From a virus: a stretch of 54,246 bases of DNA. The translations under genes were made by a program, and so were the position numbers. The stretch covers positions 1-54,246 of IMG/VR virus record IMGVR_UViG_3300025137_000048. One strand, written 5' to 3'. Positions within the stretch are counted from its first letter, which is position 1, and every line of letters begins with the position of its first letter. This document shows, in pieces, positions 11,932 to 34,482 of this stretch. The notes under the pieces were generated by a model, which made no database searches, was not told the origin of the DNA, and saw nothing but the letters and a program-made list of their open reading frames with translations.

Positions 11932-12759
11932 CTACCCTATCATATAGTGTGGAGGTAATTCGTATGCTAATTGTATCTGTTCTTCAAGTCTATTAATTTC
12001 TTCTTGAGCTTGTGTGTAAATTTGTTCGCCGTTCATTTGAACACCACCTAACATAGCTACACCTTGAAACTTAGAAAGATTTTGACCCCATTGTTTTTTA
12101 ACTAATTGTATAAGATATTTTTTTAAAAAGATATCATCAAATACATCGCTGTAATTTGAACCATCTAATTTACGATAACATTCTATAAGCATAAAGTCAC
12201 CGGCGTCAACATCATTTTTCCAATCCATGTCAACATACAATCTATTAGTGTGTGCATTAAATCTAACAGGTCTTTCACCAGTAAGAATATGATCTAATAA
12301 ATCTAAATGTCTTAGTGTCATATCGTAATGAATAATACTTGTAGATGAAAAATCATATAAATCGTTTAATCTTAATTGATATCGTACATCAAACAAGTTT
12401 AATGCAGCTTTATCTGTGAAAGGAAATACTTGAACTACGGACATAACATTAGAAGGCATGGGTATATAATTTTTACCTTCTTTAAAAATTGCTGTAACTG
12501 AGGAATCTCTTACATCTGTAACAGTAGGTAAAGTTTCATTACTTCTTGCTCTTACAATATCGTCTGCTGTGACTTGATATTTAAGATACATTCTTTCAAC
12601 ACCATCGTAATGATATTGAGCAAAGTATTGTAATGCTTCGTCTATTCTATCCTCTACTTGATCGTCTTCTACATTTATCTCAACAACAGGTTTGCCTAAT
12701 GCTCTTAGACAATATTGTTTGAGTGTTTCTCTTGTAGTTATTGGGTTATTTTGTGCCAT
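11932..12759 (-). CDS. gp13: Neck protein gp13
   Basis: Head-to-tail neck protein. The 275-residue length is near T4 gp13 (309). Recognisable family features are LKQYCLRALGKPVVEINVED at residues 13-32, DRIDEALQYFAQYHYDGVER (residues 38-57), and the ending YELPPHYMIG. It opens the classic 13-to-23 gene series and has its own full late-promoter box 20 nt upstream with an AGGA ribosome site, so it probably starts a transcript independent of the fibre genes. Confidence 0.93.
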   Translation of the reverse strand: MAQNNPITTRETLKQYCLRALGKPVVEINVEDDQVEDRIDEALQYFAQYHYDGVERMYLKYQVTADDIVRARSNETLPTVTDVRDSSVTAIFKEGKNYIPMPSNVMSVVQVFPFTDKAALNLFDVRYQLRLNDLYDFSSTSIIHYDMTLRHLDLLDHILTGERPVRFNAHTNRLYVDMDWKNDVDAGDFMLIECYRKLDGSNYSDVFDDIFLKKYLIQLVKKQWGQNLSKFQGVAMLGGVQMNGEQIYTQAQEEINRLEEQIQLAYELPPHYMIG

Positions 12760-12786: not shown

Positions 12787-15441
12787 TTAACCTAGCGCTA
12801 TGGCTTGTGCAATAGCAAATGCTGGTGTTGTTTTTGTGTCTAATTGTGTTTGAATATTCTCTGATACACCGTCAAGATGACCTATTTCAGTTGACGTAAC
12901 CACACTTACAGATACATCACCACTACCATCAGATACTAATGCTCTGCCGTTAGTTAAGTTTGCCATCTTACTAAATGCAATTGCAGCACCAGATTTAATG
13001 TCTGCATTTACGATATTTGTAATTGTATTGTTATCGCTATCAATACTTTTATTTGTTAATGTATCAGTTGTTGCTTTACCTACTAAAGTATCAGTTGCGT
13101 TAGGTAGTGATACTGTTCTATCAGCAGTTGGATCAACGGTTGTTAAAGTTGTTTCAAAACTATCGTTTGTTGCACCCTCAAAAATCATTACAGCGTCTTC
13201 GAGTAAAGTTAATGATGTGCCAACAGTTCCTGTATTAATAACAGGACTTGTAAGAGTTTTATTTGTTAATGTGTTAGAACCTGCTAGGGTTGCAAAACTA
13301 TCACTTTGTAATGCACTATTAAATTCTGATACTGAACCTGTTAGTGTATTTGTTTGTAAATCAATACTTTTGTTTGTTAATGTGTCTGTTGTTGCTTTAC
13401 CTACTAGTGTGTCAGTTGCATTTGGTATTGTTACAGTACGATCAGCAGTTGGATCTGTAATTGCAAGAGTTGTTTCAAAACTGTTTGCTGTACTACCTTC
13501 AAATACAATGTTTTGTGAGAAGATACCTGCTGATGTAACCTCTGCTAAGTTACCTGTTGTAATAACTGTACCAGATACGTTAGGTAAAGTAATTGTTCTA
13601 TCTGCCGTTGGGTCTGTTACAGCAATTGTAGTTTCAAAACTATCTGCTGTACTACCTTCAAATACAATAGTTGGACTATTGATTGTGGGTGAATTAATTG
13701 TAGGACTTGTTAAAGTCTTATTTGTTAATGTATCTGTTGTTGCCTTACCTACTAGTGTGTCTGTTGCATTAGGAAACGTAATTGTTCTATCTGCTGTAGG
13801 ATCTGTTACTGCTAATGTTGTTTCAAAACTATCTGCTGTTGAACCTTCAAATATAATAGTAGGAGTTACTAATGTTTTGTTTGTAACAGTTGCTGTTGAA
13901 GTTGTTGATAATAAAACACCATCATCACCAGATGGTAATGTAAGAGTATTATCTGCTGCTTGAGCGTGTGGTGCGCCTATGAGTGTTTGTGCATGTGCAT
14001 TTGAACTCTCACAATAAAATAAAATTTTTGAAGCAGTACCACCATTTTTTAAATCAATAACACCAGTATCAATACTAACGTTACCATCAATTACAACCTT
14101 ACCTGTACCATGTGGCGTTAATGCAATGTTTCTATTTGAAGCAGTAGTAACAATAGCACTTGTCTCTACATCTAAGTTACCACCTAAACTTGGAGAACTA
14201 TCGTCTGCAACATTTGATAAACCTGCACCTGCAGCTGAACTTACTGAGGTAAATGAAAGATTACCTGAACCGTCTGTAATTAAAACTTGATTTGCGTCAC
14301 CGTCAGTATTAGGTAAAACAAAACTTATATTGCCTGCTATTTGAGGCGACACTATTGAAATTGAATGTGAACCATCAGATGGATCGTATAATTTTATACC
14401 TGCACTTGATATTGTTCCTTTTGTAATAGTTAAATTGCCTGAAGATGAACTATTGAATGAACCTGTACCAAACGTAAATTCGTCAGCACTTTCATCAAAG
14501 CCCATAAAGATATTTGCACTACTACCTCTTTCACCCACTATACCTATATCGCCAGAAGGCGTACCACTTGTACCAGTTGCTAATTCAATTATTTTATCTG
14601 TAATAGTTGTATTAGTTGAAGATACGGATGTTGTTGTACCACTAACAGTAAGATTTCCTGATACTGTTAGATTACCAGCAATTGTTGGATTATCTACAAT
14701 ACCTATTGTTACTGTACCTGAACTTTCTGCTACAGTTGTTTCATTTGAAACAGCAGAAAAAGTTACTGTACCACCTAAAGAAACAGCACTTGTATTAGAA
14801 CCATCTGAAACTGTGATTGAAGAATTACTTAATTTTGCATTACCTATGCTACCTGCAAGTTTAGAAGCAGCAATTGAACCTCCTAACATTGTATTTGTAA
14901 CTGAACCTGTATCACCAGTCGTAACAACTGTACCTGTAACATTTGGTACTGTAATTGTTCTATCTGCTGTTGGATCTGTTACTGATATTGTGGTTTCAAA
15001 ACTGTTTGCTGTGCTACCTTCAAATATTAAACTGCCTGACGTAATAGACGGCGTTGTCATTTGAGGTGTCGTGATAGTAGGGTTTGTTAATGTCTTATTT
15101 GTAAGTGTTTTAGATGTAGCAGAAAATAACGTATCTAATTGAGATAATAAAACTCTACCTTCCGTACCATCATCTGACAATAAAAGTTTATCACCTACGG
15201 CTAATGTTGCACTTTCTAAATTCGTTGCACCGTCAATATTAACAATTGCTTCTACACTACCAAACTCTAACGCACTAGCGCCTGAGTTTACTTTTAGTAC
15301 CTGACCTGCACTACCTATTGATAATGCCGCACCAATACCACCATGTGCCAAAGGTATTGTATCACCAGATTGAAATTCTGCAAGACCTGTTGCTACGTTA
15401 CTATCGTTAAAGACGGCTCTTATTGGTTTTTTATCTGCCAT
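12787..15441 (-). CDS. Repeat-rich tail fibre-like protein (884 aa)
   Basis: A long Thr/Ser/Gly/Asn-rich fibre protein without Cys in its visible repeats. Five copies of a unit built on IFEGSTADSFETT and VTDPTADRTIT occur near residue 138 and four times between about 530 and 800, often followed by DTLVGKATTDTLTNK. Such repeats are common in marine phage fibres and usually form extended beta structures. A middle part includes IAGNLTVSGNLTVSG and ANIFMGFDESADEFTFG, as in reporter-like fibre domains. The last residues, AFAIAQAIALG, match the end of the cupredoxin-like protein at 38123-39028. No clear ribosome site, so translation is probably coupled to the upstream gene. Confidence 0.85.
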   Translation of the reverse strand: MADKKPIRAVFNDSNVATGLAEFQSGDTIPLAHGGIGAALSIGSAGQVLKVNSGASALEFGSVEAIVNIDGATNLESATLAVGDKLLLSDDGTEGRVLLSQLDTLFSATSKTLTNKTLTNPTITTPQMTTPSITSGSLIFEGSTANSFETTISVTDPTADRTITVPNVTGTVVTTGDTGSVTNTMLGGSIAASKLAGSIGNAKLSNSSITVSDGSNTSAVSLGGTVTFSAVSNETTVAESSGTVTIGIVDNPTIAGNLTVSGNLTVSGTTTSVSSTNTTITDKIIELATGTSGTPSGDIGIVGERGSSANIFMGFDESADEFTFGTGSFNSSSSGNLTITKGTISSAGIKLYDPSDGSHSISIVSPQIAGNISFVLPNTDGDANQVLITDGSGNLSFTSVSSAAGAGLSNVADDSSPSLGGNLDVETSAIVTTASNRNIALTPHGTGKVVIDGNVSIDTGVIDLKNGGTASKILFYCESSNAHAQTLIGAPHAQAADNTLTLPSGDDGVLLSTTSTATVTNKTLVTPTIIFEGSTADSFETTLAVTDPTADRTITFPNATDTLVGKATTDTLTNKTLTSPTINSPTINSPTIVFEGSTADSFETTIAVTDPTADRTITLPNVSGTVITTGNLAEVTSAGIFSQNIVFEGSTANSFETTLAITDPTADRTVTIPNATDTLVGKATTDTLTNKSIDLQTNTLTGSVSEFNSALQSDSFATLAGSNTLTNKTLTSPVINTGTVGTSLTLLEDAVMIFEGATNDSFETTLTTVDPTADRTVSLPNATDTLVGKATTDTLTNKSIDSDNNTITNIVNADIKSGAAIAFSKMANLTNGRALVSDGSGDVSVSVVTSTEIGHLDGVSENIQTQLDTKTTPAFAIAQAIALG
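13108..15026 (-). repeat. Internal coding repeats of the 884-aa fibre
   Basis: Five related blocks of about 72 bases lie at roughly 13108-13186, 13432-13504, 13591-13664, 13778-13852 and 14956-15026. On the plus strand each contains a version of ttgtttcaaaactatctgct. They encode the FEGSTA..SFETT..VTDPTADRT unit. Identity is high enough that recombination could change the copy number. Confidence 0.75.
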
Positions 15442-15450
15442 ATGCTATAT

Positions 15451-16587
15451 TTAGAATTGAAAAAGCGTAGGGTCAGCGTCTGCCAACGCACTACCATTTG
15501 CCAATGTAAAACTCTTTGTTCCTGTAAAAACAAACTTATCATCAATAACCGCATTGAACTCAAAGTCTGTATTCTTTGTTGATAATCCACCTGACGCACT
15601 AAAGAAAGGTATAACTCTTGATACTTGACCAGCATTACCTGTTGAACCAGTTGATATAACAGCAAGTTGATTGTCTCCAGATTTAGAACCTGCTGGTAAT
15701 TCTACACCTGCTGCTGATACGGCGACTGTGCCAGTACCATCTGAACTAATTGTAGCACCACCAAGGTTAATTGTTTGGCCTGCTAAGAAAATATCTTTAA
15801 ATCTTTTAGAGGCAGTACCTAAACTCCTAGTACCATTGCCATCAGGTATAATATCTTGATCAACGGCTGATAAGTCACTTGCGACTTCACCAAAATCAAA
15901 TTTATTAGTTGATGAATTAAATTTTAATGCAAAACCATTTTGTTTTGAACTAATATCTACATCATCTAAATCTTTTAATGCACCAGCACCACCTCCACTA
16001 CTATGTGATTGTGATACTTTAATTAATTGTTTTGTTAAATTGTCTAATCGTTTTTCTAAACCCTCTACTGATGGTGGCACTCTTTTTGGTTTTTGTGCCT
16101 TTTCTATTTTATCTAATTCTTTTGTAGTTAATTCTATTATGGGCGAAATTGTTTTTGGCGCTTCTGTCGTTTCGGGTTGCCTGTGTTCCACGGTGTCCAC
16201 AGATTTGGATTTTCTTTTTGCTCTTTTCTTTTGGGGCTTTTCTTGACCTGGCGTAATTTCTTTGGTGTGGTCTGTGTAGTCTTTTGTTCCAATGGCATAA
16301 CTTTCTTCCTTTTTTGTTTCGTCAGCAAGTTGTGATAATTGTTGTAGAAGACCTATTTTTTCCTCTGTTGTAACAACCTCTTTTTCAGCCTCAATTACTT
16401 CTTCTTTAATTTTTTGTGTTTCTTTTGCAACCTCTGACAACTCTGCCATCATTGAAGCAAAGGAAACATCTTTATTGAGCTCTTCTACTTTTTTCTGTTT
16501 TTTCTTTTTTTCTTCAGCTTTTGCCTTAGATAGTTCACTTAGTAGTGAACCTAAATCAGATGAAACATCAACATTATTTTTTGCCAT
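15451..16587 (-). CDS. Coiled-coil fibre-like protein (378 aa)
   Basis: The N-terminal 110 residues are Lys/Glu-rich and predicted coiled coil (LLSELSKAKAEEKKKKQKK, EVAKETQKIKEEVIEAEKEV). A basic linker follows (KPQKKRAKRKSKS, about 117-129), then a second coiled coil (VEGLEKRLDNLTKQLIKV near 173-190), and finally a beta-rich fibre domain with LGTASKRFKDIFLAGQTIN, a motif common in marine phage fibres. It is followed after nine bases by the 884-residue fibre, so the two may form one appendage. The exact role is unknown to me. No strong ribosome site is visible. Confidence 0.8.
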   Translation of the reverse strand: MAKNNVDVSSDLGSLLSELSKAKAEEKKKKQKKVEELNKDVSFASMMAELSEVAKETQKIKEEVIEAEKEVVTTEEKIGLLQQLSQLADETKKEESYAIGTKDYTDHTKEITPGQEKPQKKRAKRKSKSVDTVEHRQPETTEAPKTISPIIELTTKELDKIEKAQKPKRVPPSVEGLEKRLDNLTKQLIKVSQSHSSGGGAGALKDLDDVDISSKQNGFALKFNSSTNKFDFGEVASDLSAVDQDIIPDGNGTRSLGTASKRFKDIFLAGQTINLGGATISSDGTGTVAVSAAGVELPAGSKSGDNQLAVISTGSTGNAGQVSRVIPFFSASGGLSTKNTDFEFNAVIDDKFVFTGTKSFTLANGSALADADPTLFQF

Positions 16588-16590
16588 AAA

Positions 16591-16956
16591 TTATCTAGTA
16601 ACGTTTGGTCTTACCGTCACGGTTCCTTGTATTGGTCTAGTTACTGTGCTATCAGAAGCAGTTATTTCAACATCATATACATATCTTCCTTCTTCTAATG
16701 CAGCCGTTTGTGTTGGTGTTAAACTTAAAGTAAGTTTGCCACTAGATGTTGTTGAATTTATTGCTGTAGTAAAAGATGTTGATGATGAAGAAGAATAAGA
16801 TTTGCGAATTTGTGCAGCTACAGAATAACCTGCTAAATCAACAATGCTATCATTTTGATATACTGTTATTTCTGTACTAAAAGACGCCCCTTGATCCATT
16901 GTCAAATTTGCAATGGCAGCAACATTAGGCGCCGTTGTAATCGTTGTTGTTGGCAT
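16591..16956 (-). CDS. Small fibre/baseplate accessory protein with Ig-like fold
   Basis: A 121-residue beta-type protein of a kind widespread in marine T4-like phages: MDQGASFSTEITVYQND, DLAGYSVAAQIRKSY, a Ser-rich loop, LSLTPTQTAALEEGRYVYDV, and a final GTVTVRPNVTR. The pattern resembles BppU-like N-terminal domains that anchor receptor-binding proteins, but this is an eye-level comparison. It has a good AGGAG site and an ATAAATA box upstream, so it begins the small fibre transcript running into the 378- and 884-residue genes. Confidence 0.8.
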   Translation of the reverse strand: MPTTTITTAPNVAAIANLTMDQGASFSTEITVYQNDSIVDLAGYSVAAQIRKSYSSSSSTSFTTAINSTTSSGKLTLSLTPTQTAALEEGRYVYDVEITASDSTVTRPIQGTVTVRPNVTR

Positions 16957-16975: not shown

Positions 16976-16982
16976 TATTTAT
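16976..16982 (-). promoter_or_regulatory. Putative late promoter before the 121-aa gene
   Basis: ATAAATA on the minus strand, 20 nt before the ATG of the gene ending at 16591, overlapping the stop codon of the last oxygenase gene. It would separate the fibre genes from the oxygenase island. Confidence 0.5.
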
Positions 16983-17596
16983 GTAAATTTAATATCAAAA
17001 CTTATCATAACCCTAGGATCCTTAGATTTACTAGGTTCTACAAAATGATCTAGATATGGTGGCCATAACATTAAGTCACTTTCTACTGGTAATCGCCAAT
17101 GCCACTCTCCTTTATGAATTTTAGCAGTAGACCAATAATGATTAATTGCTGCGTGTCTAGGGTCTCTAAATGCAATTCTACCTGAGTTTTCAGGAATTTG
17201 TAAATAGTACGCACCTGATAAATCGTAGTGTGTACCATGACAATGTAACACATTGTAAGAATGTTCAAAATTAATTGCTGCCCACATTTGTGTTATGTTC
17301 ATTCCTGTAATGTCAGGAAATATAGTTTTACATATATTAAATATTTGTTGACCTAACTCATTCATTGCTGGTTCTTTATGTAAATCAGTACGACTTTGCC
17401 AACCTCCTTGACGATTTGATTTTTGAAGACTATCTGGGTTCTTATCATACTCACTTCGAATAAAAGATAACAAGTCTTCGTTAAGAGATACCTTTCTTTC
17501 TTGTTGAGTATTTACACCTATATTTGACATCCACAGAGGGGTAGGATATAAATCTACTCTTTCTATTGTTGTGGAACCTTTTGGATCAAGGGACAT
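16979..17596 (-). CDS. 2OG-Fe(II) oxygenase A, HxH type
   Basis: A 205-residue member of the putative 2OG-Fe(II) oxygenase family I know as TIGR02466/PF13759. The double-stranded beta-helix core is recognisable: MWAAINFEHSYNVLHCHG (candidate ligands His118 and His120), LSGAYYLQIPENSGRIAFRD, then the distal PPYLDHFVEPS (His184) and DPRVMISFDI (Arg195, expected to bind the 2OG carboxylate). The usual HxD pair is HxH here. Substrate is unknown. Its start overlaps the end of the ferredoxin gene by 11 nt, linking the two tightly. It is the last gene of the island. Confidence 0.88.
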   Translation of the reverse strand: MSLDPKGSTTIERVDLYPTPLWMSNIGVNTQQERKVSLNEDLLSFIRSEYDKNPDSLQKSNRQGGWQSRTDLHKEPAMNELGQQIFNICKTIFPDITGMNITQMWAAINFEHSYNVLHCHGTHYDLSGAYYLQIPENSGRIAFRDPRHAAINHYWSTAKIHKGEWHWRLPVESDLMLWPPYLDHFVEPSKSKDPRVMISFDIKFT

Positions 17597-17918
17597 ATAC
17601 TACCAATCCGTTATGTTTGTTTTTTAATTCTATTTGACAAGATAAACGACTTGCTTGTTCATCAAAGTTTTCTTCATACTCTAATAACGAAAGTTCAGGA
17701 GTGTTATCGCTTGCAGGTCCAGTTACTTGACGCCATTCCTTAGGCACATGAACATGACAAGTTGCACACGAACAAGACCCACCACAATCACCTTCAATAC
17801 CACTAACATATTTGTTCTTAGAATAGAAGCGTGTTGCTTCCATAAGAGTGGTATTTTCAGGTACTTGTATTGTTTCTTTTTCTCCTGTATCTTTTTGTAT
17901 TAAAGTTACTTCAATCAA
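17586..17918 (-). CDS. [2Fe-2S] ferredoxin
   Basis: A 110-residue plant/adrenodoxin-type ferredoxin. The cluster ligands are clear: Cys45, Cys51 and Cys54 in GDCGGSCSCATCHV and Cys94 in RLSCQIE, with an extra Cys49. N-terminal beta-grasp strands (MIEVTLIQKDTGEKETIQVP) and the family-like PASDNTPELSLLEY loop support the fold. It carries one electron to a partner enzyme. The start codon is TTG at 17918, preceded by GGAG with a normal gap; no ATG fits. It is sandwiched between two oxygenase genes and overlaps one. Ordinary 2OG oxygenases do not need a ferredoxin, so its partner is an open question. Confidence 0.93.
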   Translation of the reverse strand: MIEVTLIQKDTGEKETIQVPENTTLMEATRFYSKNKYVSGIEGDCGGSCSCATCHVHVPKEWRQVTGPASDNTPELSLLEYEENFDEQASRLSCQIELKNKHNGLVVYVP

Positions 17919-18641
17919 TTATCTTACTCCGTCTTGATTTAATGCCATTTCTAATTCTATTCGGTCATCAAAATTTACACTTACTGATACTCTTTCTGTA
18001 TCTGCTTGAAAAGGATAAACCATGTGAGATAATTGAGCAGGAAAAAAGAATATTTGTTTTTCTTTTGGTGTTCTAATCCAACCACCACTTGAAAACGACA
18101 TACCTGAATTACCAAAACTAAATTCAATACGACCTGCTGATGGTGTATTACTTCTTTTTGTATGATCTGCCTTTTCATTTTCTTCTTCTATTTCTTTAGG
18201 TACTCTTAAATAAGTAACACATGATATTTTACCTGTATGATTGTGTGCAGGATTCCATTCATTTGATTTCATAAAATTAACCCATACTGGTTTTTGCATT
18301 ATTATTTCATTTGGTTGTCTTACAAATCTTTTTTTAATTTTGTTTGCTTGATGAGCAGCATTAGTATAGTGTGCTGCTAAAAAACAAAATTCGTCTTCAA
18401 TCATTTTTGCTTCTTCTTTAGTAAATGCTTTATCATAAGAATATTCTTCACTTAAACAACCTGCTAATCTACCCCTATAATCATTTGTCTCTGTGTTAAT
18501 ATCTGAATTAGGATGTGTGCCGTCTCTTAATTGATCTGCTCTGTTTAATAATGTACTATGCAATTCATCACTTATAGTTGTTTCCATAATTACAGGACCA
18601 AAAGGAACAGTCCAATCTATTTGTCTACCTTCTATACTCAT
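17919..18641 (-). CDS. 2OG-Fe(II) oxygenase B, HxH type
   Basis: A 240-residue protein with the jelly-roll signature VWVNFMKSNEWNPAHNHTGK (His133, His135), the strand CVTYLRVP, an inserted acidic loop (about 150-165), FFFPAQLSHMVYPF (His206) and ERVSVSVNFDD (Arg217). This matches phage 2OG-Fe(II) oxygenases near TIGR02466, again with HxH. I place the start at the ATG at 18641, which forms an ATGA overlap with the stop of oxygenase C; a GTG two codons upstream is the alternative. The substrate is unknown. Confidence 0.82.
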   Translation of the reverse strand: MSIEGRQIDWTVPFGPVIMETTISDELHSTLLNRADQLRDGTHPNSDINTETNDYRGRLAGCLSEEYSYDKAFTKEEAKMIEDEFCFLAAHYTNAAHQANKIKKRFVRQPNEIIMQKPVWVNFMKSNEWNPAHNHTGKISCVTYLRVPKEIEEENEKADHTKRSNTPSAGRIEFSFGNSGMSFSSGGWIRTPKEKQIFFFPAQLSHMVYPFQADTERVSVSVNFDDRIELEMALNQDGVR

Positions 18642-19378
18642 ACCCACTGCTCTTTCTCATCAGCGTGTTTACCACCTTCTTGAAATTCACCATGATGTTT
18701 TGCTTCTGCTATTTTTAATTTATTCATTGCGTCCATGTTTTTTGATGTGTGAGGATAACCAAGACCTGGTCGACAATCAAACTTTGCGTCTTTGAAAGGA
18801 CCATTTCTATCACAATAATGAAAGAACACTTGTGATTGCATAAGACCTTTAAATTCTTCACGCCAATGATCTACTTCACAACCACGATAAATTATTGCGT
18901 CACCTGGTTGCATATCGTAACCTTTATCTTCTTTAGGATTACCACCATATCGTTGACCGTTAGCAGTATTATTAACCCATAGTTGCCAGTTATAATCTGT
19001 TTTCTTAAATGCGTCTAGATTACTATAATCATAACCCAAACATATTGTAGCAGATATTTCACAAGCAGGTCTGTCAGTATGATGTTTTAATATATCACCT
19101 TGTTTATATACTCTATAAAAAGTATATGTAGGCCATAACTCTACACCTGTTAATTCTTCCATCTTTGGCCATGTGTGTTCAAAAATAGATTCCATTAAGT
19201 GATCACCATGTATTGAATGTGTATGTGGTATTTGACCTGTTGCACTTTCTGGTGAATGATTATGTCTTGCCTGATGTAGTGTGTATGTTGTAGCAAGTTT
19301 TGCTAATTCAGGACTAATAAAATTTTTTACTAAAAGATATCTATCCTTTTCAAATTGTTCCATTGTTTCTTTACTCAT
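18638..19378 (-). CDS. 2OG-Fe(II) oxygenase C, HxD type
   Basis: A 246-residue oxygenase. After an N-terminal helix (FEKDRYLLVKNFISPELAKL) comes the core: TYTFYRVYKQGDILKHHTDR with ligands His100 and Asp102, EISATICLGYD, MQPGDAIIYRG, and EVDHWREEF with distal His171. Where many relatives have Arg after the distal His I see QSQVFFHYCD, so the 2OG-binding residue is uncertain. This is a common architecture in marine phages and resembles prolyl-hydroxylase or phytanoyl-type enzymes. A GGAGA site lies 6 nt before the ATG. Its stop forms an ATGA coupling with oxygenase B. Confidence 0.85.
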   Translation of the reverse strand: MSKETMEQFEKDRYLLVKNFISPELAKLATTYTLHQARHNHSPESATGQIPHTHSIHGDHLMESIFEHTWPKMEELTGVELWPTYTFYRVYKQGDILKHHTDRPACEISATICLGYDYSNLDAFKKTDYNWQLWVNNTANGQRYGGNPKEDKGYDMQPGDAIIYRGCEVDHWREEFKGLMQSQVFFHYCDRNGPFKDAKFDCRPGLGYPHTSKNMDAMNKLKIAEAKHHGEFQEGGKHADEKEQWV

Positions 19379-19392
19379 TTTAGTTCTCCTTA

Positions 19393-19983
19393 TTAATAAA
19401 AATTTGGATCATTAGTTTTTGGATCTTCTTTATCATATCCTAACCAACCAGTAATAATTAATTTTTCCTCTGTACTACTTATTAGACCTCTATGTGCGTA
19501 AGGATAATTGACAGGCCATATCAAAGTCAATCCTTTCTTACAAGGTGCTTTCCAATTTAAATATGTAAACTCTGTACCACCATTCTTTGTATCTGTTAAG
19601 TAAGTCATGAACGCCATTATTCTATGACTTTCATTGTATGACATAATTTCGCAATGTTCTTTATGATATCCTCCACCAGGTTTATAGTATTGTATATTAA
19701 CACCATCACATGTACCCCAAGGATGATGTCTAGCCAATATAGGAAACTTGCGAACATAATTATCTATTATATCGTGTAATTCGAGGTGCCATATTTTTAA
19801 GTTTGTTATTTCTTTAACAGGCATTCCTAAGTCTAAAGAATCCTTAACCGTTTTATCAATCTTTCCATAAGGACCCATTCTTCCTTGCGTAATTCTATGT
19901 TGTTCTTTCTTGTACATATTAAGACAATTTTCTACAGCACGATCAGAAACATATTCTGCATGTATACCAAAAGGTGTTTCCAT
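19393..19983 (-). CDS. 2OG-Fe(II) oxygenase D, P4H-like with HxE
   Basis: A 196-residue prolyl-4-hydroxylase-like oxygenase. The core reads DGVNIQYYKPGGGYHKEHCE, then MAFMTYLTDTKNGGTEF, GLTLIWPVNYPYAHRG and EEKLIITGW. The metal pair is His110/Glu112 rather than HxD; distal His164 and Lys174 (the usual 2OG-anchoring Lys of P4H-type enzymes) are present. The Glu substitution could alter activity or support unusual chemistry. It starts by TAATG overlap with oxygenase E. Substrate unknown. Confidence 0.85.
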   Translation of the reverse strand: METPFGIHAEYVSDRAVENCLNMYKKEQHRITQGRMGPYGKIDKTVKDSLDLGMPVKEITNLKIWHLELHDIIDNYVRKFPILARHHPWGTCDGVNIQYYKPGGGYHKEHCEIMSYNESHRIMAFMTYLTDTKNGGTEFTYLNWKAPCKKGLTLIWPVNYPYAHRGLISSTEEKLIITGWLGYDKEDPKTNDPNFY

Positions 19984-20894
19984 TATTTAAAAGGTCTTCC
20001 TAAACTCCATATAACTAAAGAGTATCTTGTGCCAGAGGTTACTGGTGTAACTTGGTGATGAAGAAATGATGGAAAAAGAATCATTGATCCTTGATCTCTT
20101 ATCTCTTTGCATGTTTTAAATCTTCCTCTACCTGCATGAGGACCAAAATCAAATTTAAGATTACCACCTTTGTATTGATCAGGTGTTGTTAAATTTAATG
20201 TCATACTTAATTTTCTTATCTTAGCCCAATAAAATCTATTATCTGTAAAACCAGTTGCCGGCACATCATTATTCCACAAGTCTTTCTTTTTTCTTACAGG
20301 ACAATCTTGATCTGTTATTTCTACTTTAGGAAATGAATTACCAAACTCATCTTTTTCCATAATAAAATCTGTTCCTTTTTCGTTAGGAATTAATTTACAA
20401 ATTTTCCACTTACCATCTTTACCTTTTAATGTTGGTTTATACATACTAGGCCAATCTGAACTACCGTCAGCATGCCAACCATAAAATTGTCCTGGTTCAT
20501 ATTTTGTAAACTGACAAGCCTCACTAAAATTCCACTCATAGTTCCAACCTGCTTTTTGATTTGCCTCATGAATAAAAGGATGTATCATATCATATAACCA
20601 TTTATCACTTAACCAAGCAATTGAACTATCTCTTACATATCCGTCACTTTCTTTGATACCTAACTTTTTTTGTTTTTGTTTTGTCATATTGGCAGTAGCA
20701 ACATTACCTGTTTTTTCACCTGCCATAGTAACTCCACCTTTTTCTTTACCATCAGCAGTTTGTGCCTTGATTGCGTCCTCACCATATGCACTTGATTTTT
20801 TTGTTAATTCAGTCATACCTGCTTCTAAAATTTTAGTACATTGTTTAGGTGTCAACGCACTTTTAAAAAAATAATAATTATTTACTAGTTGCAT
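19983..20894 (-). CDS. 2OG-Fe(II) oxygenase E, PKHD-type hydroxylase
   Basis: A 303-residue protein of the PiuC/YbiX-like PKHD-type hydroxylase group. Metal ligands are His141 and Asp143 in FYGWHADGSSDW and His280 in MILFPSFLHHQVTPV, with Arg290 in SGTRYSLVIWSLGRP for 2OG. An insertion of about 80 residues lies between the first pair and the second half (roughly 150-230), larger than usual for the family. I chose the ATG at 20894 (MQLVNNYYFFKSALT), which has AAGGAGAG upstream, over an upstream in-frame ATG at 20948 that lacks a clear site. The short start still overlaps the previous gene by 17 nt. Confidence 0.88.
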   Translation of the reverse strand: MQLVNNYYFFKSALTPKQCTKILEAGMTELTKKSSAYGEDAIKAQTADGKEKGGVTMAGEKTGNVATANMTKQKQKKLGIKESDGYVRDSSIAWLSDKWLYDMIHPFIHEANQKAGWNYEWNFSEACQFTKYEPGQFYGWHADGSSDWPSMYKPTLKGKDGKWKICKLIPNEKGTDFIMEKDEFGNSFPKVEITDQDCPVRKKKDLWNNDVPATGFTDNRFYWAKIRKLSMTLNLTTPDQYKGGNLKFDFGPHAGRGRFKTCKEIRDQGSMILFPSFLHHQVTPVTSGTRYSLVIWSLGRPFK

Positions 20895-21654
20895 GATGTG
20901 GACACTCTCCTTTCTTAATCTCGTCTTTTCTATGTTTAGCGTAACCATTACCCCACTTTGTTCTTACATGGTAGTAACTTGTATTTCTTGCTTGTCTTAA
21001 TTCTGTTGTTTCATTTGTTACATTTAAATCAAAACTTTCTCTACGAATAGGAATGTATTGTGCTAGAGGAGTACCTCTTTGTAATTCAAAAACACCTTTT
21101 TTATGAAACATCATTTGTTGATTTATTTCATGGTGTATATCTGTCCATATAACAGCACTCGCTACTGTAAACACAGGATTAAAATGCCACATCATAGGTA
21201 ATTGTAATAAAGAAACACCCTTAGGTGTTCTTACACGCCAAGGACAATTAGGTTTCATTACTACTGTTGGTTTGGCATGTTTAGGAAGAAAATCTGCTAA
21301 TTGTGTTGGTCCATGATTATCAAAACTAAATTCTGCAGCAGGTGAGTTCCATTTCCATGAACCATCATCAAATATTTCTACTTTTAAATCACACCATAAA
21401 GGTACAACAAAACCCATACTCATAAACTCTGGTATTGCAGGACATCTTTTTACAGTACCTTTGTTATGAAGATTATTAATTTTATTATCTTTTAATACTG
21501 TTTCGTTTTGCCATTGAGGTGTATTAGTCCACCATTTAGGCATAAAATTGTGAGATTCCTTTACAGGTTCAACACCAGGTATACCTTCTATATCAGACCA
21601 AATATCAATTACGTCTTCTTTTTTAGGACCAAACTTAAATAGTTTCTTTAACAT
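20878..21654 (-). CDS. Unknown protein embedded in the oxygenase island
   Basis: A 258-residue protein without an HxD/HxH...H arrangement that I can read as an oxygenase. Visible segments are a basic start (MLKKLFKFGPKKED), ESHNFMPKWWTNTPQW, TVKRCPAIPEFMSMGFVVPLW around residue 68, and LLQLPMMWHFNPVFTVASAV. This resembles a hypothetical family I have seen in cyanophage genomes, with no function known to me. It overlaps oxygenase G by 20 nt upstream and oxygenase E by 17 nt downstream, so it is produced with them. A role as partner or substrate-handling protein is possible but unproven. Confidence 0.75.
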   Translation of the reverse strand: MLKKLFKFGPKKEDVIDIWSDIEGIPGVEPVKESHNFMPKWWTNTPQWQNETVLKDNKINNLHNKGTVKRCPAIPEFMSMGFVVPLWCDLKVEIFDDGSWKWNSPAAEFSFDNHGPTQLADFLPKHAKPTVVMKPNCPWRVRTPKGVSLLQLPMMWHFNPVFTVASAVIWTDIHHEINQQMMFHKKGVFELQRGTPLAQYIPIRRESFDLNVTNETTELRQARNTSYYHVRTKWGNGYAKHRKDEIKKGECPHHATSK

Positions 21655-22165
21655 TAAACGATACCGCTATTCTTTCATCATCTGAAAAACTTTCACCAAC
21701 GCCATGTCTAGTTGCGCCATCAAAGATAACTAACATTCCATCTGTGGGTGTAATTTTTTGTTTTAGTTGTGGAAAAAGTAAATCGCCACTATTTTTAGGT
21801 GCTTTAATATAATACACACCTGACCATAATGCTGGCCAATGATCATGTGTTATTGCATAATTGCCTTTATTGTAAATCATACCCCACATATCTGATATTC
21901 TAGGTTGTATTTCTCTACGATAATATTTTTTACTTAGAAATCTAGTTGCTGCAATTACATGTTCTTCAAACTTATCAAAACCAGGTTTGCCTGACATATT
22001 CCAATCAGTCATGTATGCTTTAACATTAGTTTTATGATCTTGTTTATCACCACTTTTTTTAATTTCTTCTACTAATTTATCCACCATATCAGGATCTACA
22101 ATTGTTGTTGTAAAAACACTAGTAGGTTTTATTGTTTCAAAATTATGTTGTAATATTTCACTCAT
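21635..22165 (-). CDS. 2OG-Fe(II) oxygenase G, HxH type
   Basis: A compact 176-residue oxygenase of the TIGR02466/PF13759 type. The motif block is SDMWGMIYNKGNYAITHDHW (His107, His109), LWSGVYYIKAPKNSGDLLF, GMLVIFDGATRHGVGES (His154) and DERIAVSFNV (Arg165). The usual final C-terminal extension is short. It overlaps the preceding oxygenase H by 8 nt and the following unknown gene by 20 nt. Which substrate it acts on cannot be read from the sequence. Confidence 0.87.
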   Translation of the reverse strand: MSEILQHNFETIKPTSVFTTTIVDPDMVDKLVEEIKKSGDKQDHKTNVKAYMTDWNMSGKPGFDKFEEHVIAATRFLSKKYYRREIQPRISDMWGMIYNKGNYAITHDHWPALWSGVYYIKAPKNSGDLLFPQLKQKITPTDGMLVIFDGATRHGVGESFSDDERIAVSFNVKETI

Positions 22166-22907
22166 CTTTTAACTCCAAATCTTGTATTGTAACTGATCCT
22201 CCACTATTGTGACCTTTTCCTAATTTTTTAGGTTCTACACCAATTTTTCTTCCTTGCATAAAATTAAATGATATTGAATATCTCCATCCTTTACTATTAG
22301 TTTCTTCAAACTCTTTATTTAAATTAGGTTCTACTTCGTGCATTAACCAAGCAGGAAATATTATTAATCTACCTGGCACTGGTTCATAATAAACTTCTCT
22401 CCAAGTAAAATTTTCTCTAGTTTTAAAACGAGGTAAAATCATATGTGCTTCACCTCTAGGATCTGTAAACCAAATACGACCACTATCTTTAGGTGCTTGT
22501 ATATAATAAACACCAGACCATAAACCACCTGGGTGTATATGATTTCTGTTATGTGAATATCTTTTGTTTATGTTTGCCCACATATTATCAGCATAAGGTT
22601 CAAAGTCAGGATCATATCCTTGATCATCAAACACTTTTTGCACTTTTTCAAATATCCATTTAGTAATATGGTTGTATTCATTTCTGTGGTGCATATCAAC
22701 AGCACTATGCCAACCTAATGAGTTAGAACGAACAATACCTTCTTCATCTCTTTTTTCCCATTGATCTACATTTTTTTTAATTCTGTTATTTGTTTCTAGT
22801 GCCGTAGGATGATCAAAGAAATAGATCATTGTTGGATAAAAACTTTCTCTTATTAAAGTATCCTTTGGGGGAGTGCCTTGATTTTTTTTAGATGTATGTT
22901 GGTCCAT
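22158..22907 (-). CDS. 2OG-Fe(II) oxygenase H, HxH type
   Basis: A 249-residue oxygenase and the best textbook match here to the TIGR02466 family: NMWANINKRYSHNRNHIHPG (His123, His125), LWSGVYYIQAPKDSGRIWFT, DPRGEAHM, PGRLIIFPAWLMHEVEPN (His190) and WRYSISFNFM (Arg209). An N-terminal part (FYPTMIYFFDHP) is also typical. The last 30 residues form a Gly/Lys-rich tail. The start at 22907 lies inside the end of oxygenase I, with a weak AGGATGG site, so translation is probably coupled. Confidence 0.9.
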   Translation of the reverse strand: MDQHTSKKNQGTPPKDTLIRESFYPTMIYFFDHPTALETNNRIKKNVDQWEKRDEEGIVRSNSLGWHSAVDMHHRNEYNHITKWIFEKVQKVFDDQGYDPDFEPYADNMWANINKRYSHNRNHIHPGGLWSGVYYIQAPKDSGRIWFTDPRGEAHMILPRFKTRENFTWREVYYEPVPGRLIIFPAWLMHEVEPNLNKEFEETNSKGWRYSISFNFMQGRKIGVEPKKLGKGHNSGGSVTIQDLELKDE

Positions 22908-23541
22908 GAATCCATCCTACTATAGCATGTCGTGTGCCAGTTTTAATTTTACTTACTCTGTGTGCTAAAAATGAAGGGAACATAATACAAGTGCCTTGTT
23001 GTCTAAACGCTTCTGTATTTGTTTTCGTTCCTAAAAATTCTAAATCACCACCTTCATAATCTTCAGGTTTAGATAGTTGAATTGTAAAACTTAATTTACG
23101 ATTAGGTACATTTTTACCTACATCTATATGCCAATCATAATGACAACCTTTACCATATTCCATGATCATAGGTGCGTCATAATTCATAAAACCAGATACA
23201 TCAAATTTATATCTTGCTTCATTTGCTTGTTGCATTAATTCAAGTATTCTTGTATGAGGCCAACCTTCTTCATTCATCATTAAACCTTGTTGTTTAACAT
23301 TACGAAGTTTCTTATCTATCTCGCCCTCATTTACTTCACCTTGTATCCACAAGGGACTTTCGCAAGCTTCTATAACTGCTGTACATTGTTCAGGACTAAA
23401 AAAACTTGTGTGAACAATTGACGTAAATAAATCGTTTGTTTGTACGGATTCTTGTGTGACAGCCGCTGGTGGTTCATTTACTTTTTTGAACCCGGTGTCT
23501 TTTGATAGTTGCTCATCAGCAACTTTTATATTTTCTTCCAT
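22888..23541 (-). CDS. 2OG-Fe(II) oxygenase I, PKHD-type hydroxylase
   Basis: A 217-residue PKHD-type hydroxylase: His138 and Asp140 in CHYDWHIDVG, KLSFTIQLSKPEDYEGGDLEF, CIMFPSFLAHRVSKI (His194) and GTRHAIVGWIHGP (Arg204). Family members such as YbiX share this layout. I place the start at the ATG at 23541 (MEENIKVADE) because AAGGAG stands 5 nt before it. An upstream in-frame ATG at 23577 would begin inside the conserved leader hairpin at 23560-23578 and has no ribosome site. The first 35 residues are polar and probably disordered. Confidence 0.9.
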   Translation of the reverse strand: MEENIKVADEQLSKDTGFKKVNEPPAAVTQESVQTNDLFTSIVHTSFFSPEQCTAVIEACESPLWIQGEVNEGEIDKKLRNVKQQGLMMNEEGWPHTRILELMQQANEARYKFDVSGFMNYDAPMIMEYGKGCHYDWHIDVGKNVPNRKLSFTIQLSKPEDYEGGDLEFLGTKTNTEAFRQQGTCIMFPSFLAHRVSKIKTGTRHAIVGWIHGPTYI

Positions 23542-23600
23542 TATATCTCCTTCTACTGTTATACTCTCAACGAGCACATTTACATAGTGTTACTATATAT
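23542..23600 (-). promoter_or_regulatory. Conserved leader element, copy 1
   Basis: A 59-base element filling the gap before oxygenase I. It matches copy 2 (25038-25095) with 5 substitutions and one 1-base gap in my alignment. It contains a potential 7-bp hairpin at 23560-23578 (arms UGUGCUC/GAGUAUA, loop GUUGA), a second dyad ATAGT-N3-ACTAT at 23584-23596, an A/T-rich TATATA tract and the ribosome site AAGGAG. Changes between copies in the stem keep pairing through G-U or A-U alternatives. Probably a promoter or leader control unit; function unknown. Confidence 0.65.
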
Positions 23601-23601
23601 G

Positions 23602-24357
23602 TTATTTTTTCTTCGTGGTTTTTTTCTTTATTGAAGAAACTTTATTTCTTCCTCCATAAACTCTTGGATCACTAAAAGTTATTCTATTGTATTTAATTCC
23701 GCCTCCAGTACCAGGAGGTGTTCTATCTAATGTTTGAAAACCTTTACCAAAGTTATTTGTTTCAGACATAATTAATTCCCACTTTTGTTTTGCTCTTTCT
23801 TTTTTTGCTTCTTCAGATTTTAATATCATATCCTCAGTAGGTTTATTTAATTTAAGAACATCAGGATTAAAATTTTTCTTACCTTTAAATGCTTGACCAT
23901 GATTTGCAGCGTCTATCCATTGTCTTAATCTCATTGACTTATCTGGTTTATGTTCTTGGTGCCATTGACCTGTTATAGGACTTTGGTGCATAGCACCTTT
24001 ACCCACAGGCTTCTTTGGTTTACGCCACCACCATTTTGAAATTAATAAACCACGACCTTTATCTAACATACGACCTAACCAATCTTTACCATGTGATTTA
24101 AAGTTTTGATAATCAGAAGCAATAGTTTTATTTAATTCCATATTTTGATGATGTTGTTTCCATCTAAACTCTCTCTGTTCTTGACTTTCTCTATATTTCA
24201 TTTCAAACTCTAGTAACTTATCATAAGATATATCACCTTTAGCAAAAGCTTCTTTTTTATCTTTATATGCATTTAAATTGTGAACTTCCCATTCCCAATC
24301 TGTAGGCATTTTTGTTTTCCAATTTAGTGGAATATATTTTTTGAAATCAAATCCCAT
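23602..24357 (-). CDS. Lys-rich unknown protein in the oxygenase island
   Basis: A 251-residue very basic protein, Trp- and Lys-rich, predicted helical in the first 100 residues (FAKGDISYDKLLEFEMKYRE, REFRWKQHHQNMELNKT). KWWWRKPKKPVGKGAMHQSP follows near residue 108, and the end is VSSIKKKTTKKK. I recognise no enzyme domain. Its Lys-rich terminus resembles the 49-residue protein at 53791-53940. It lies between oxygenases I and J, and the two-gene unit with J is flanked by the two leader copies. It could be a structural, nucleic-acid-binding or substrate protein. Good AAGGAAAG ribosome site. Confidence 0.72.
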   Translation of the reverse strand: MGFDFKKYIPLNWKTKMPTDWEWEVHNLNAYKDKKEAFAKGDISYDKLLEFEMKYRESQEQREFRWKQHHQNMELNKTIASDYQNFKSHGKDWLGRMLDKGRGLLISKWWWRKPKKPVGKGAMHQSPITGQWHQEHKPDKSMRLRQWIDAANHGQAFKGKKNFNPDVLKLNKPTEDMILKSEEAKKERAKQKWELIMSETNNFGKGFQTLDRTPPGTGGGIKYNRITFSDPRVYGGRNKVSSIKKKTTKKK

Positions 24358-24359
24358 TT

Positions 24360-25037
24360 TTACTTTCCTTTATCTTCCGTTACGTTTTGAACAATTTTTG
24401 GATCCATTACCGCTGCCATATTAAAATGTACAAATCTAAATTTTTCGTTATTCAGACCAGCAAAATGTGAATATGCATGTGGCATATAAGAATTAAAAAA
24501 TATAAAATCTCCTGGTCTAACAGGATAATGTATTTGAGTAGAGGCATGAGTAATTTTTTTTGGATCTTTAGAATCCAAATCTGTCATTATCTTACCTGGT
24601 CGTGGATCATGAAATGAAGGTTTAGATGTTTTTTCACTACATTGTAAAAAGTAAAAACCACTCATGTGATTATTACCGTGAATGTGTATATCATGAAAAC
24701 CACCTTCTTCAGGAAATTCTTGTACCCAACACTCTTGTAATAAAGGCATTTTACCTTCTAATTTATATCCTTGCCACGATAAAACATTCCACATTTGTTG
24801 CATAACAAATTCAACAAAAGGTTTAAAAGGTTTTTCTTTCCAAAGATTATGACTATGATATGAATTAGGTAACTGATCTATCGTACCATCTTTAAGTTTT
24901 TTTTGATTTTCTTTTTTTAATCTATCTATAATAGGATCAACATGTTTATCTAAAGACAACCATTGTGTGTCGTTTCCTCTGTATATAGAACACGGAAATA
25001 AATCGTGTCTGTTTAATTCTAAAGGTACTGTATTCAT
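24360..25037 (-). CDS. 2OG-Fe(II) oxygenase J, HxH type
   Basis: A 225-residue oxygenase and the first gene of the island in transcription order. The core reads LLQECWVQEFPEEGGFHDIH with His118/His120 in HDIHIHGNN, MSGFYFLQCSEKTSKPSFHD, then RPGDFIFFNSYMPHAYSHF (His187) and NEKFRFVHFNMAA (Arg201). This fits the TIGR02466-like phage oxygenases. A strong AGAAGGAG site is 5 nt before the ATG, at the end of leader copy 2. Substrate unknown. Immediately upstream is the first glycine-rich adhesin gene. Confidence 0.87.
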   Translation of the reverse strand: MNTVPLELNRHDLFPCSIYRGNDTQWLSLDKHVDPIIDRLKKENQKKLKDGTIDQLPNSYHSHNLWKEKPFKPFVEFVMQQMWNVLSWQGYKLEGKMPLLQECWVQEFPEEGGFHDIHIHGNNHMSGFYFLQCSEKTSKPSFHDPRPGKIMTDLDSKDPKKITHASTQIHYPVRPGDFIFFNSYMPHAYSHFAGLNNEKFRFVHFNMAAVMDPKIVQNVTEDKGK

Positions 25038-26873: not shown

Positions 26874-26874
26874 A

Positions 26875-28539: not shown

Positions 28540-28542
28540 GTG

Positions 28543-30342: not shown

Positions 30343-30346
30343 TATA

Positions 30347-30553
30347 TTATCCTTCGCTTACTTTTGTTCCAAAGTAACCTGTTGCTGCATTAACTTTTTG
30401 TGTTGCAGCATTACTTTCACTAGTAACGTCATATGCTGAAGAGGTTAAATCTGTAAATGTTGAACCATCTACATTTTTAATCTTAGCATTTGCTTGAGGT
30501 TTTGCGTTTGGTCTTTTGTCTATGATTTCTGTTTTTAAACTCTTTACTGGCAT
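30347..30553 (-). CDS. Small protein within the adhesin array (68 aa)
   Basis: A 68-residue polar protein: MPVKSLKTEIIDKRPNAKPQ, then FTDLTSSAYDVTSES and a final AATGYFGTKVSEG. I recognise no domain. It has a strong AGGAGAG site and a full late-promoter box upstream, so it starts a new transcript that then includes adhesin paralogs 3, 2 and 1. It could be a fibre connector or chaperone, by position only. Confidence 0.7.
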   Translation of the reverse strand: MPVKSLKTEIIDKRPNAKPQANAKIKNVDGSTFTDLTSSAYDVTSESNAATQKVNAATGYFGTKVSEG

Positions 30554-30574
30554 TATAATCTCTCCTTGTAATAC

Positions 30575-30582
30575 TATTTATA
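30575..30582 (-). promoter_or_regulatory. T4-type late promoter inside the adhesin array
   Basis: Exact TATAAATA on the minus strand in the 30-base gap between paralog 4 and the 68-residue gene, 22 nt before that ATG. It divides the array into two transcription units. Confidence 0.7.
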
Positions 30583-30583
30583 T

Positions 30584-32305
30584 TTATGCCCAACTAAGCG
30601 ACACACCATGAATTTTACTTTGATTGTTTGCTAATGCCAGTTTCCATCTCATTGATGTACCTGATGGTTGACCTGCAATTGATACTGTTCCAGTCAAAAT
30701 TCTTTGACCACTAGATCCTGTAATATATCCTTCGTCTGATAATGTAACATTTGTAAAATTAGATCCACCGTTTCTAGAAACACTTGCTATAATATCAGTA
30801 TTTAATGTAGGTGTATCTACGTTCTCTTGAAATACTACAATACGACTTGTACTTGGCGCTGAACCTGCTGTAAAGGCATTTGAAACTATTGTTGTAGATG
30901 TTGCTTGTGCAGCTGCTGTTCCTGTAATAAGAACGAAACCATCTTCTCCTCTACCTGAATTTGGAGTAGGAGCACCACCGGCACCTGAACCTGGAGGAGC
31001 AGAATATTCTGGATTAACTCCACCACCTTCTCCTGTTTGAGGTGAATAACCTGTTTTAGAAACACCGGCACTTTCACCACTACTTTCAGCGTCACCAGCA
31101 GCACATGTTGCACCTGATGTAATTTGAGGATGACCGTAGTATGAACTACCTCCACCTCCACCACCTGCGTGACCTGTTTCTCCGCCTTCTCTAAATCCTG
31201 ATGAACCACCGCCACCACCATACCAACCTCCGCCGCCTCCGCCGCCTTTATTGGTATATGGTTCTGGAGCACATCCTGTTGCTGCGTTACCGCCTTGAAA
31301 TTGAGCACCGGTTTGACCTGAACCACCTTTATTATTTGGGTGTGTTCCTTGAGGGGCACCTTGACCGCCTGATGTTTGACCACCACCGCCACCGTGACCT
31401 GCTAGTACACCACCGGCACCTGATTGACTTGCAATATGTCTTACTGTTCCTGCTGGTGAAGCACTTTCTGGATCATGAATAAATCCTATGAGACCACCGC
31501 CTCCGCCTCCACCACTACATCCTATTTTACCTACGTTGAAACAACCAATAGGATTACCTTTGTTATAGAAACCACCTGATTGAGGTAAGTCTGCTGCTCC
31601 TCCACCTGAACCTGCAATTACATATGCTTCAGGACCAGAATCCATTTGAGGAAATGCTTCAACACCAGTTGCAAAGACACCGGCAACACCGCCACCTCCA
31701 CCACCAGCACCGCCGGGATCTGGTCCACCTGGACCTCCATCACCGCCTCCGCCACCACCGGATTCTCCTGTGACACCGCCACCTTCTCCTGCAATTACTT
31801 TTAATGTTTGACTTGCTGTAACTGCCAAAGTACCTTCAGCGTAACCGCCACCTCCACCATTACGATAATCTCTACCTAGTGGACCTTGTCCTTGTCCGTT
31901 ACCACCTGCACCCCATACTGATATACTAGCAGAGGTCATACCTGTTGGTACTGTAAATGTTCCTAATTCTATACTTGGTGTTGTTCCGTGTTGTGGGTTT
32001 GCACCTGCTGTTGATGTATCTGCTTCTGATACTGTGGTCATTGTAAACCCAGCAGAATATGGTACGGCTGAACCGTCTGGTGTTGTCGAGTTTAAATAGA
32101 TATCACTAGCGGCAACATAATTGTCGTTAGTTCCTTCTCCTTCGTCAGTACCGGATTCGTCATGAAACTCATCTACTACACCATCTACTAAATTAAAAAC
32201 TGTTAAGGAATCGTTAACGGCCATCTTGAAACCAAGAAGACCTACGTTGATTTGTTTACCTACTTCTCCAGCGCTAAAATTATCTAAATCTATTTTTTGT
32301 GTCAT
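30584..32305 (-). CDS. Glycine-rich adhesin-like paralog 4 (573 aa)
   Basis: A short N-terminal arm (MTQKIDLDNFSAGEVGKQIN) replaces the SAKI-type repeats of copies 1 to 3. The shared block follows (VGLLGFKMAVNDSLTVFNLV, DEGEGTNDNYVAASDIYLN), and here the Cys of the YC motif is absent. The Gly-rich core is very long, with GGGGDGGPGGPDPGGAGGGG, IGCFNVGKIGCSGG, ATGCAPEPYTNKGG, GGGGSSYYGHPQITSGATCA. The C-terminal domain is standard (ending HGVSLSWA). The different arm implies attachment to a different partner, or a different position in the appendage. Confidence 0.8.
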   Translation of the reverse strand: MTQKIDLDNFSAGEVGKQINVGLLGFKMAVNDSLTVFNLVDGVVDEFHDESGTDEGEGTNDNYVAASDIYLNSTTPDGSAVPYSAGFTMTTVSEADTSTAGANPQHGTTPSIELGTFTVPTGMTSASISVWGAGGNGQGQGPLGRDYRNGGGGGYAEGTLAVTASQTLKVIAGEGGGVTGESGGGGGGDGGPGGPDPGGAGGGGGGVAGVFATGVEAFPQMDSGPEAYVIAGSGGGAADLPQSGGFYNKGNPIGCFNVGKIGCSGGGGGGGLIGFIHDPESASPAGTVRHIASQSGAGGVLAGHGGGGGQTSGGQGAPQGTHPNNKGGSGQTGAQFQGGNAATGCAPEPYTNKGGGGGGGWYGGGGGSSGFREGGETGHAGGGGGGSSYYGHPQITSGATCAAGDAESSGESAGVSKTGYSPQTGEGGGVNPEYSAPPGSGAGGAPTPNSGRGEDGFVLITGTAAAQATSTTIVSNAFTAGSAPSTSRIVVFQENVDTPTLNTDIIASVSRNGGSNFTNVTLSDEGYITGSSGQRILTGTVSIAGQPSGTSMRWKLALANNQSKIHGVSLSWA

Positions 32306-32308
32306 AAT

Positions 32309-34470: not shown

Positions 34471-34475
34471 ACTAC

Positions 34476-34482
34476 TATTTAT
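34476..34482 (-). promoter_or_regulatory. Late-promoter-like box very close to a start codon
   Basis: ATAAATA on the minus strand, but only 5 nt separate it from the ATG at 34470. If it is a working promoter, the transcript would be essentially leaderless; it may instead be a chance match or serve nothing. Confidence 0.3.

Follow-up and report, generated by a model that had tools for sequence, protein, structure and literature searches.

Why does a single virus carry nine different oxygenase genes packed into one block between its fibre genes? The question is raised by the IMG/VR record IMGVR_UViG_3300025137_000048, whose 54,246 nucleotides are referred to here as the window. The window, a 54-kb virus record, contains T4-like myovirus late genes for prohead scaffold and protease, portal, tail tube, sheath, terminase, neck proteins, fibres and baseplate; on the minus strand at 16979-25037, 12 open reading frames fill a block with intergene gaps of -71 to +24 bp. 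In transcription order these are O1, X2, O3, O4, O5, X6, O7, O8, O9, O10, a ferredoxin gene and O12, where O denotes an Fe(II)/2-oxoglutarate (2OG) oxygenase gene. The initial annotation had described nine adjacent, clearly different oxygenases; the presence of nine 2OG-superfamily genes is confirmed, but they are not strictly adjacent, as three of the 12 block genes (ferredoxin, X2 and X6) encode other proteins. The best single reading, with a probability of about 0.4, is that the island enzymes hydroxylate virion proteins, fibres above all.

Eight of the nine proteins score above Pfam cut-offs for 2OG-Fe(II) families in profile searches, as the initial annotation had anticipated for most of them, and O9 is placed by its AlphaFold2 fold and an invariant HxD...H. 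O1, O4, O5, O10 and O12 exceed the PF13759 cut-off of 27 bits, and O3, O7 and O8 that of PF13640; O4 and O12 also exceed the TIGR02466 cut-off of 62.5 bits, under which O1, O5 and O10 fall (scores in Table 1). The three motif subtypes predicted earlier, HxH, HxD and HxE, are all present, in five, three and one proteins, respectively. The 2-His-1-carboxylate site HxD/E...H is found in O3, O7, O8 and O9, and HxH also occurs in bacterial PF13759 relatives of solved structure, 3BVC and 2RG4, for which no functional report was found in the literature searched.

The island and its position by the fibre genes are conserved together. All 12 genes, X2 and X6 included, recur in a second contig, L005, also viral, with order and orientation unchanged and amino-acid identities of 55-86%; there, too, they lie between fibre genes of the same kinds and the neck gene gp13. 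In a third contig, L037, the 3' end of the block is 89-92% identical. The iron-binding motifs are kept in the aligned or listed orthologues of the island oxygenases. Chance is excluded as the source of the nine genes, because of the profile scores and of the second contig with all 12 genes in order. Within the island, by contrast, the top pair of paralogues is only about 35% identical and most pairs are undetectable by BLASTP; a single recent tandem duplication, which the initial annotation had also discounted, is rejected on comparison with the one-to-one L005 orthologues.

The ninth protein is the most instructive. O9 matches only PHROG families labelled 'ferrochelatase' (phrog_2954); no Pfam family matches it at E-values up to 1, and the ferrochelatase domain PF00762 was not detected. 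Across 17 aligned relatives, H-x-D is invariant, as is a His about 70 residues further on, and the AlphaFold2 model (predicted local distance difference test, pLDDT, 85; predicted template modelling score, pTM, 0.84) finds Fe/2OG oxygenases in all 50 of its 50 top matches in the PDB, among them a prolyl 4-hydroxylase solved with EF-Tu. Because of the invariant HxD...H and these fold matches, O9 is, as modelled, a 2OG-fold enzyme and its label is wrong: a ferrochelatase is rejected, there being neither a Pfam match nor a chelatase fold. Pelagiphage 2OG genes have been reported to adjoin a 'ferrochelatase' gene, read as a haem enzyme (mSystems 2022, PMC9599517; ISME J 2024, PMC11561400). The re-reading of phrog_2954 corrects the label behind this claimed partnership and removes the haem-partner idea for pelagiphages, which is the sharpest outcome of the analysis.

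The company that O9 keeps is recurrent. Among 54 distinct viral O9 loci with enough flanking sequence, all but one (53) carry a further same-strand 2OG gene within 2.2 kb, and a PiuC-like gene lies within 2.2 kb upstream in 45; on some bacterial chromosomes, O9 adjoins an O7- or O8-like gene.

The late-gene orientation noted initially extends to transcription: a well-supported prediction from promoter sequences places the island and three glycine-rich fibre genes in one late unit. The exact T4 late promoter TATAAATA occurs at six sites (8191, 12779, 30575, 38114, 47905 and 54086), all six on the sense strand and intergenic, though 97% of the coding span is genic and 3% intergenic. Late promoters flank the island, no T4-type late promoter was found inside it, and L005 has the same promoter layout. 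A scan for sigma-70 promoters and terminators found 58 promoters against 62 expected. The six TATAAATA sites also map the late transcription units of the window virus.

Table 1. The island, its genes in order of transcription, and the features around it in the window. Bits are scores against the family named; L005 percentages are identities to the L005 orthologue.
Feature	Position	Strand	Assignment and remarks
O1	24360..25037	-	PF13759 oxygenase (52.7 bits), HxH, first island gene; HIH at residue 118; TIGR02466 49 bits; L005 64%
X2	23602..24357	-	251 aa, charged, Trp-rich; function unassigned; L005 69%
O3	22888..23577	-	PiuC/YbiX-like PKHD-type 2OG oxygenase (PF13640 59.1 bits), HxD; likely start = internal ATG near 23541; L005 73%
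O4	22158..22907	-	TIGR02466 (126.8 bits)/PF13759 (86.2 bits) oxygenase, HxH; structural-genomics relatives 3BVC, 2RG4
O5	21635..22165	-	PF13759 oxygenase (57.8 bits), HxH; L005 62%
X6	20878..21654	-	phrog_7084, DUF6065-related; function unassigned; in cyanophages after halogenase pair
O7	19983..20948	-	PiuC-like 2OG oxygenase (PF13640 47.3 bits), HxD, with insertion; likely start residue 19 (near 20894)
O8	19393..19983	-	PF13640 oxygenase (32.3 bits), HxE (HCE motif)
O9	18638..19378	-	Predicted 2OG-Fe(II) oxygenase, HxD; database label 'ferrochelatase' (phrog_2954)
O10	17919..18647	-	PF13759 oxygenase (55.8 bits), HxH
FD11	17586..17918	-	[2Fe-2S] ferredoxin; adrenodoxin/ISC-type CX5CX2C spacing read from sequence; PF00111 33.2 bits, 5e-8
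O12	16979..17596	-	TIGR02466 (82.5 bits)/PF13759 (57.9 bits) oxygenase, HxH, last island gene
Three paralogous glycine-rich fibre-like genes	25104-26873, 26875-28539, 28543-30342	-	Upstream of island, same unit
Tail-fibre and L-shaped-fibre-assembly-like genes	12787..16956	-	Downstream of island
Neck gp13	11932-12759	-	Beyond downstream fibre genes
Late promoter TATAAATA	30575..30588	-	Presumed start of unit with three fibre genes and island
Late promoter CATAAATA	16976..16983	-	Serves the unit that follows, from tail-fibre assembly-like gene on; also conserved in L005 (9036-9058)

The fibre genes upstream belong to a larger set: 25104-36207 holds five or more long glycine-rich fibre-like paralogues whose ends are conserved, and the Gly-rich proteins encoded at 32309-33856 and 34483-36207 match PF12810, the ALK/LTK glycine-rich domain. 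A SAR11-type host is likely, because the neck protein gp13 shares 87% identity with its counterpart in Pelagibacter phage HTVC008M; the window virus is probably a Pelagibacter phage related to HTVC008M.

Is the island peculiar to this virus? Taking a fibre-linked island to be a run of at least three 2OG genes directly beside fibre or neck genes, the window has one, and so do several cultured marine myoviruses with comparable islands between fibres and gp13; in related marine phages, islands of 3-9 genes lie beside fibre and neck genes. HTVC008M has five 2OG genes separating gp13 from the fibres and oriented opposite to both; Mosig has several between fibres and gp13, where the island of S-RIM44 also lies; and those of Syn9, Syn10, P-TIM40 and S-ShM2 directly follow fibre genes. 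A run of nine is not the exception it was first taken for. From gp45 to gp54 in Syn9, four proteins pass the cut-off of an oxygenase family (JmjC_2 for one of them), gp47, gp51, gp52 and gp53 score weakly as oxygenases and gp54 is O9-like, for a total of up to nine; the Syn9 and Syn10 islands probably match the window block in size. Contig L149 has eight consecutive 2OG genes, and a 7-kb stretch of L188 holds eight or nine. Loci fetched with O9, X6, O7 and ferredoxin queries, which are no unbiased phage survey, contained 95 runs of at least three 2OG genes, mostly three to five, and 31 of 70 genes directly downstream of such runs match one virion structural family. A podovirus-type contig likewise has a 2OG run beside fibre-like genes.

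A second label within these islands is suspect. Genes called 'DNA endonuclease V' (phrog_274), such as Syn9 gp51 and gp53 (L071 11680-12198 and 12803-13387), have weak 2OG scores; island genes so labelled also occur in L069, L070 and L002, and phrog_274 matches O4 and O5 too. On these matches, the label is probably another misannotation.

In P-TIM40, S-RIM44, Syn9 and Syn10, the island opens with two flavin halogenases and an X6 homologue directly after them. The second halogenase of Syn10 (L073 7260-8852) is the crystallised VirX1 (PDB 6QGM; 1271 bits, full length), its gene lying directly before the X6 homologue and the 2OG run. Since island position and the X6 gene are shared, the halogenases and oxygenases may act on one substrate class, the window block itself being without a halogenase. 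One review gives no natural pathway for VirX1 and emphasises its open active site; the place of the gene in the Syn10 island hints at where the natural substrate might be sought.

How might such an island work? One late message would yield nine small single-domain Fe(II)/2OG-type enzymes together with three glycine-rich fibre proteins. The enzymes would then hydroxylate amino-acid side chains on freshly synthesized virion proteins, chiefly fibres, thereby changing their stability or receptor binding; in cyanophages, flavin halogenases would join in, perhaps on the same class of substrate. We infer that the enzymes are active, that fibres are the substrate and that each enzyme has a site of its own. 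The stepwise action on a single substrate considered in the initial annotation is conjectural. Fibre tailoring is favoured because of predicted late co-expression, the recurrent fibre-side location in myovirus and podovirus-type genomes, and the presence of members from protein-hydroxylase families: JmjC_2 (YcfD-like; in Syn9) and 'Asp_Arg_Hydrox' (by the Mosig fibres) are families with protein substrates. A wider proposition, a tentative one, sees the islands of marine T4-like phages as dedicated to oxidative tailoring after translation: their 2OG-type oxygenases, nine or more at the upper end, would hydroxylate the tail fibres of the phage itself, and the VirX1-type halogenases of cyanophage islands would halogenate them.

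Several observations weigh against fibre tailoring. HTVC008M has about 17 such genes, most of them outside the island and several among replication genes; the oxygenase family as a whole is not fibre-specific. Genes scattered and unlinked to fibres had been named in advance as grounds for refutation, and half of this is seen: blocks do lie beside fibres, yet relatives are dispersed in the same genomes. The inversion of the HTVC008M island means that co-transcription with fibres is not universal; in P-SSM7, O9 relatives are flanked by gp44, dam and gp62, and in S-ShM2 they are not near the fibres; and in the cyanobacterium Brasilonema, an O9 relative (L158 5986-6642) lies between nonribosomal peptide synthetase (NRPS) and polyketide synthase (PKS) genes, which points to small-molecule tailoring. 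Five of the nine proteins have HxH instead of HxD/E, and 2OG use by these five is only putative. No hydroxylated phage fibre was found in the literature searched, and metabolic cargo (haem oxygenase, PcyA, plastocyanin, gnd) occupies the same region.

This cargo, together with the dispersal of related genes through HTVC008M and the widely varying gene content of the islands, fits a possible alternative: the gap between fibres and neck would be an insertion hot spot for auxiliary metabolic genes, the oxygenases would act on unrelated host metabolites or proteins, and their proximity to fibres would be uninformative. The clustering of 2OG genes is not chance (if about 17 of the 198 HTVC008M genes were placed at random, its run of five would have P = 0.00025), but clusters would also arise at a hot spot for cargo. 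A loose pile of cargo does not, however, account well for such a run, for 12 genes in kept order at 55-86% identity, or for the PiuC-like gene retained upstream of O9 in most viral loci. It is doubtful that the island instead makes or tailors a small molecule, such as a halogenated or hydroxylated amino acid or peptide that is released or used during infection. The flavin halogenases of cyanophage islands, VirX1 included, would suit such a role, as would MysH, OkaE and free-proline hydroxylases, also among the top fold matches of O9, and the Brasilonema relative, possibly a natural-product tailoring enzyme to judge by its neighbours; against it stand predicted late co-expression with fibres and the failure to identify, among the window block genes and those of annotated phage islands, a scaffold-making enzyme (NRPS, PKS, or a precursor or maturase of ribosomally synthesized and post-translationally modified peptides).

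Modification of the host surface (lipid A, polysaccharide or porins) late in infection, e.g., to block re-adsorption, is more doubtful still. Some runs do have beside them 'Asp_Arg_Hydrox', a Pfam domain to which LpxO-type lipid A hydroxylases also belong, or carbamoyltransferases, sulfo- and glycosyltransferases, but the nine proteins are without membrane-associated features or lipid A families, and profile searches found no sugar or lipid enzyme in the window block. Least probable is the role proposed for cyanophages (PMC3037559), DNA repair or modification, or a 2OG drain that steers host nitrogen control: some relatives adjoin replication genes, but profile searches returned no AlkB, TET or JBP family match, the unit is late, and draining 2OG needs no nine divergent enzymes. 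The choice has wider consequences: few 'auxiliary metabolic genes' are reported from marine phages as often as 2OG genes. Should the islands beside fibres act on virions, many of these genes would not be metabolic at all, and host-range chemistry would become testable with cultured phages. Oxidative tailoring of fibres would then let a phage vary its receptor binding chemically, and VirX1 would gain its missing natural substrate.

Three genes of the block remain. The ferredoxin reported initially, as part of what looked like a dedicated system, is indeed within the block, but its relatives at 75-81% identity (L033-L036, L038-L040) have no island genes nearby, those in L034 and L035 adjoining the replication genes gp43, gp44 and gp62. 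A general oxygenase partner is therefore rejected, and because these relatives lie away from island genes, the place of the ferredoxin here looks like a relocation common to the window, L005 and L037. Because 2OG oxygenases need no ferredoxin, a role in re-reducing their iron is a guess. Outside the window, X2 turned up in L005 alone: it has no Pfam or PHROG match and none in phage records, and an alignment scan recovered just L005 again. X6 belongs to phrog_7084 (158 bits), with DUF6065 matched by seven of ten aligned members; its AlphaFold2 model has a pLDDT of 50, and single-protein scans of X2 and X6 gave no useful result. X6 homologues also occur in many haloarchaeal tailed viruses; that of HSTV-2 (L059) lies near thymidylate synthase and DNA polymerase genes, with no oxygenase annotated nearby.

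Among characterised proteins, PiuC and YbiX (PKHD-type; PDB 9QN1, 3DKQ) belong to the same family as O3 and O7, and O3 matches the PiuC and Sbal_3634 structures in phmmer searches. Against the PiuC/YbiX equivalog, O3 and O7 reach 82 and 53 bits at best, far under the NCBIfam cut-offs of 143-399, so their function differs. The mimivirus collagen lysyl hydroxylase L230, an Fe/2OG viral enzyme that hydroxylates the virus's own collagen (PMC9546862), is a functional analogue of the proposed mechanism; no sequence relation is claimed, the virus is eukaryotic, and the substrate is demonstrated for L230 and proposed here. VirX1 is encoded in a homologous island, next to an X6 homologue, whereas the window block has no halogenase.

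The pelagiphages of PMC9599517 and PMC11561400 resemble the window in having several non-orthologous 2OG genes next to a 'ferrochelatase' gene; the partner taken there for a haem enzyme is here, by fold and motif, another 2OG oxygenase. Eight non-orthologous 2OG types have been reported for HTVC023P-like phages, 24 2OG genes for S-SCSM1 (PMC9602691) and ten for S-CREM1 (PMC9964418). Like the window, the latter two have many low-identity paralogues of the same Pfam families; the available portions of these reports give counts per genome, not one fibre-linked unit. Closest are HTVC008M (KC465899), Mosig (MT647606), S-RIM44, Syn9, Syn10, P-TIM40 and S-ShM2, all with divergent PF13759/PF13640 runs beside fibres, which in most cases include an O9-like 'ferrochelatase' and frequently extend to neck gp13; S-ShM2 has only three 2OG genes and its O9 homologue elsewhere. 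The window differs from them in reaching nine by stricter profiles, in its ferredoxin and X2, and in lacking halogenases. We judge the block to be an unusually large example of a known, functionally unexplained type of phage island.

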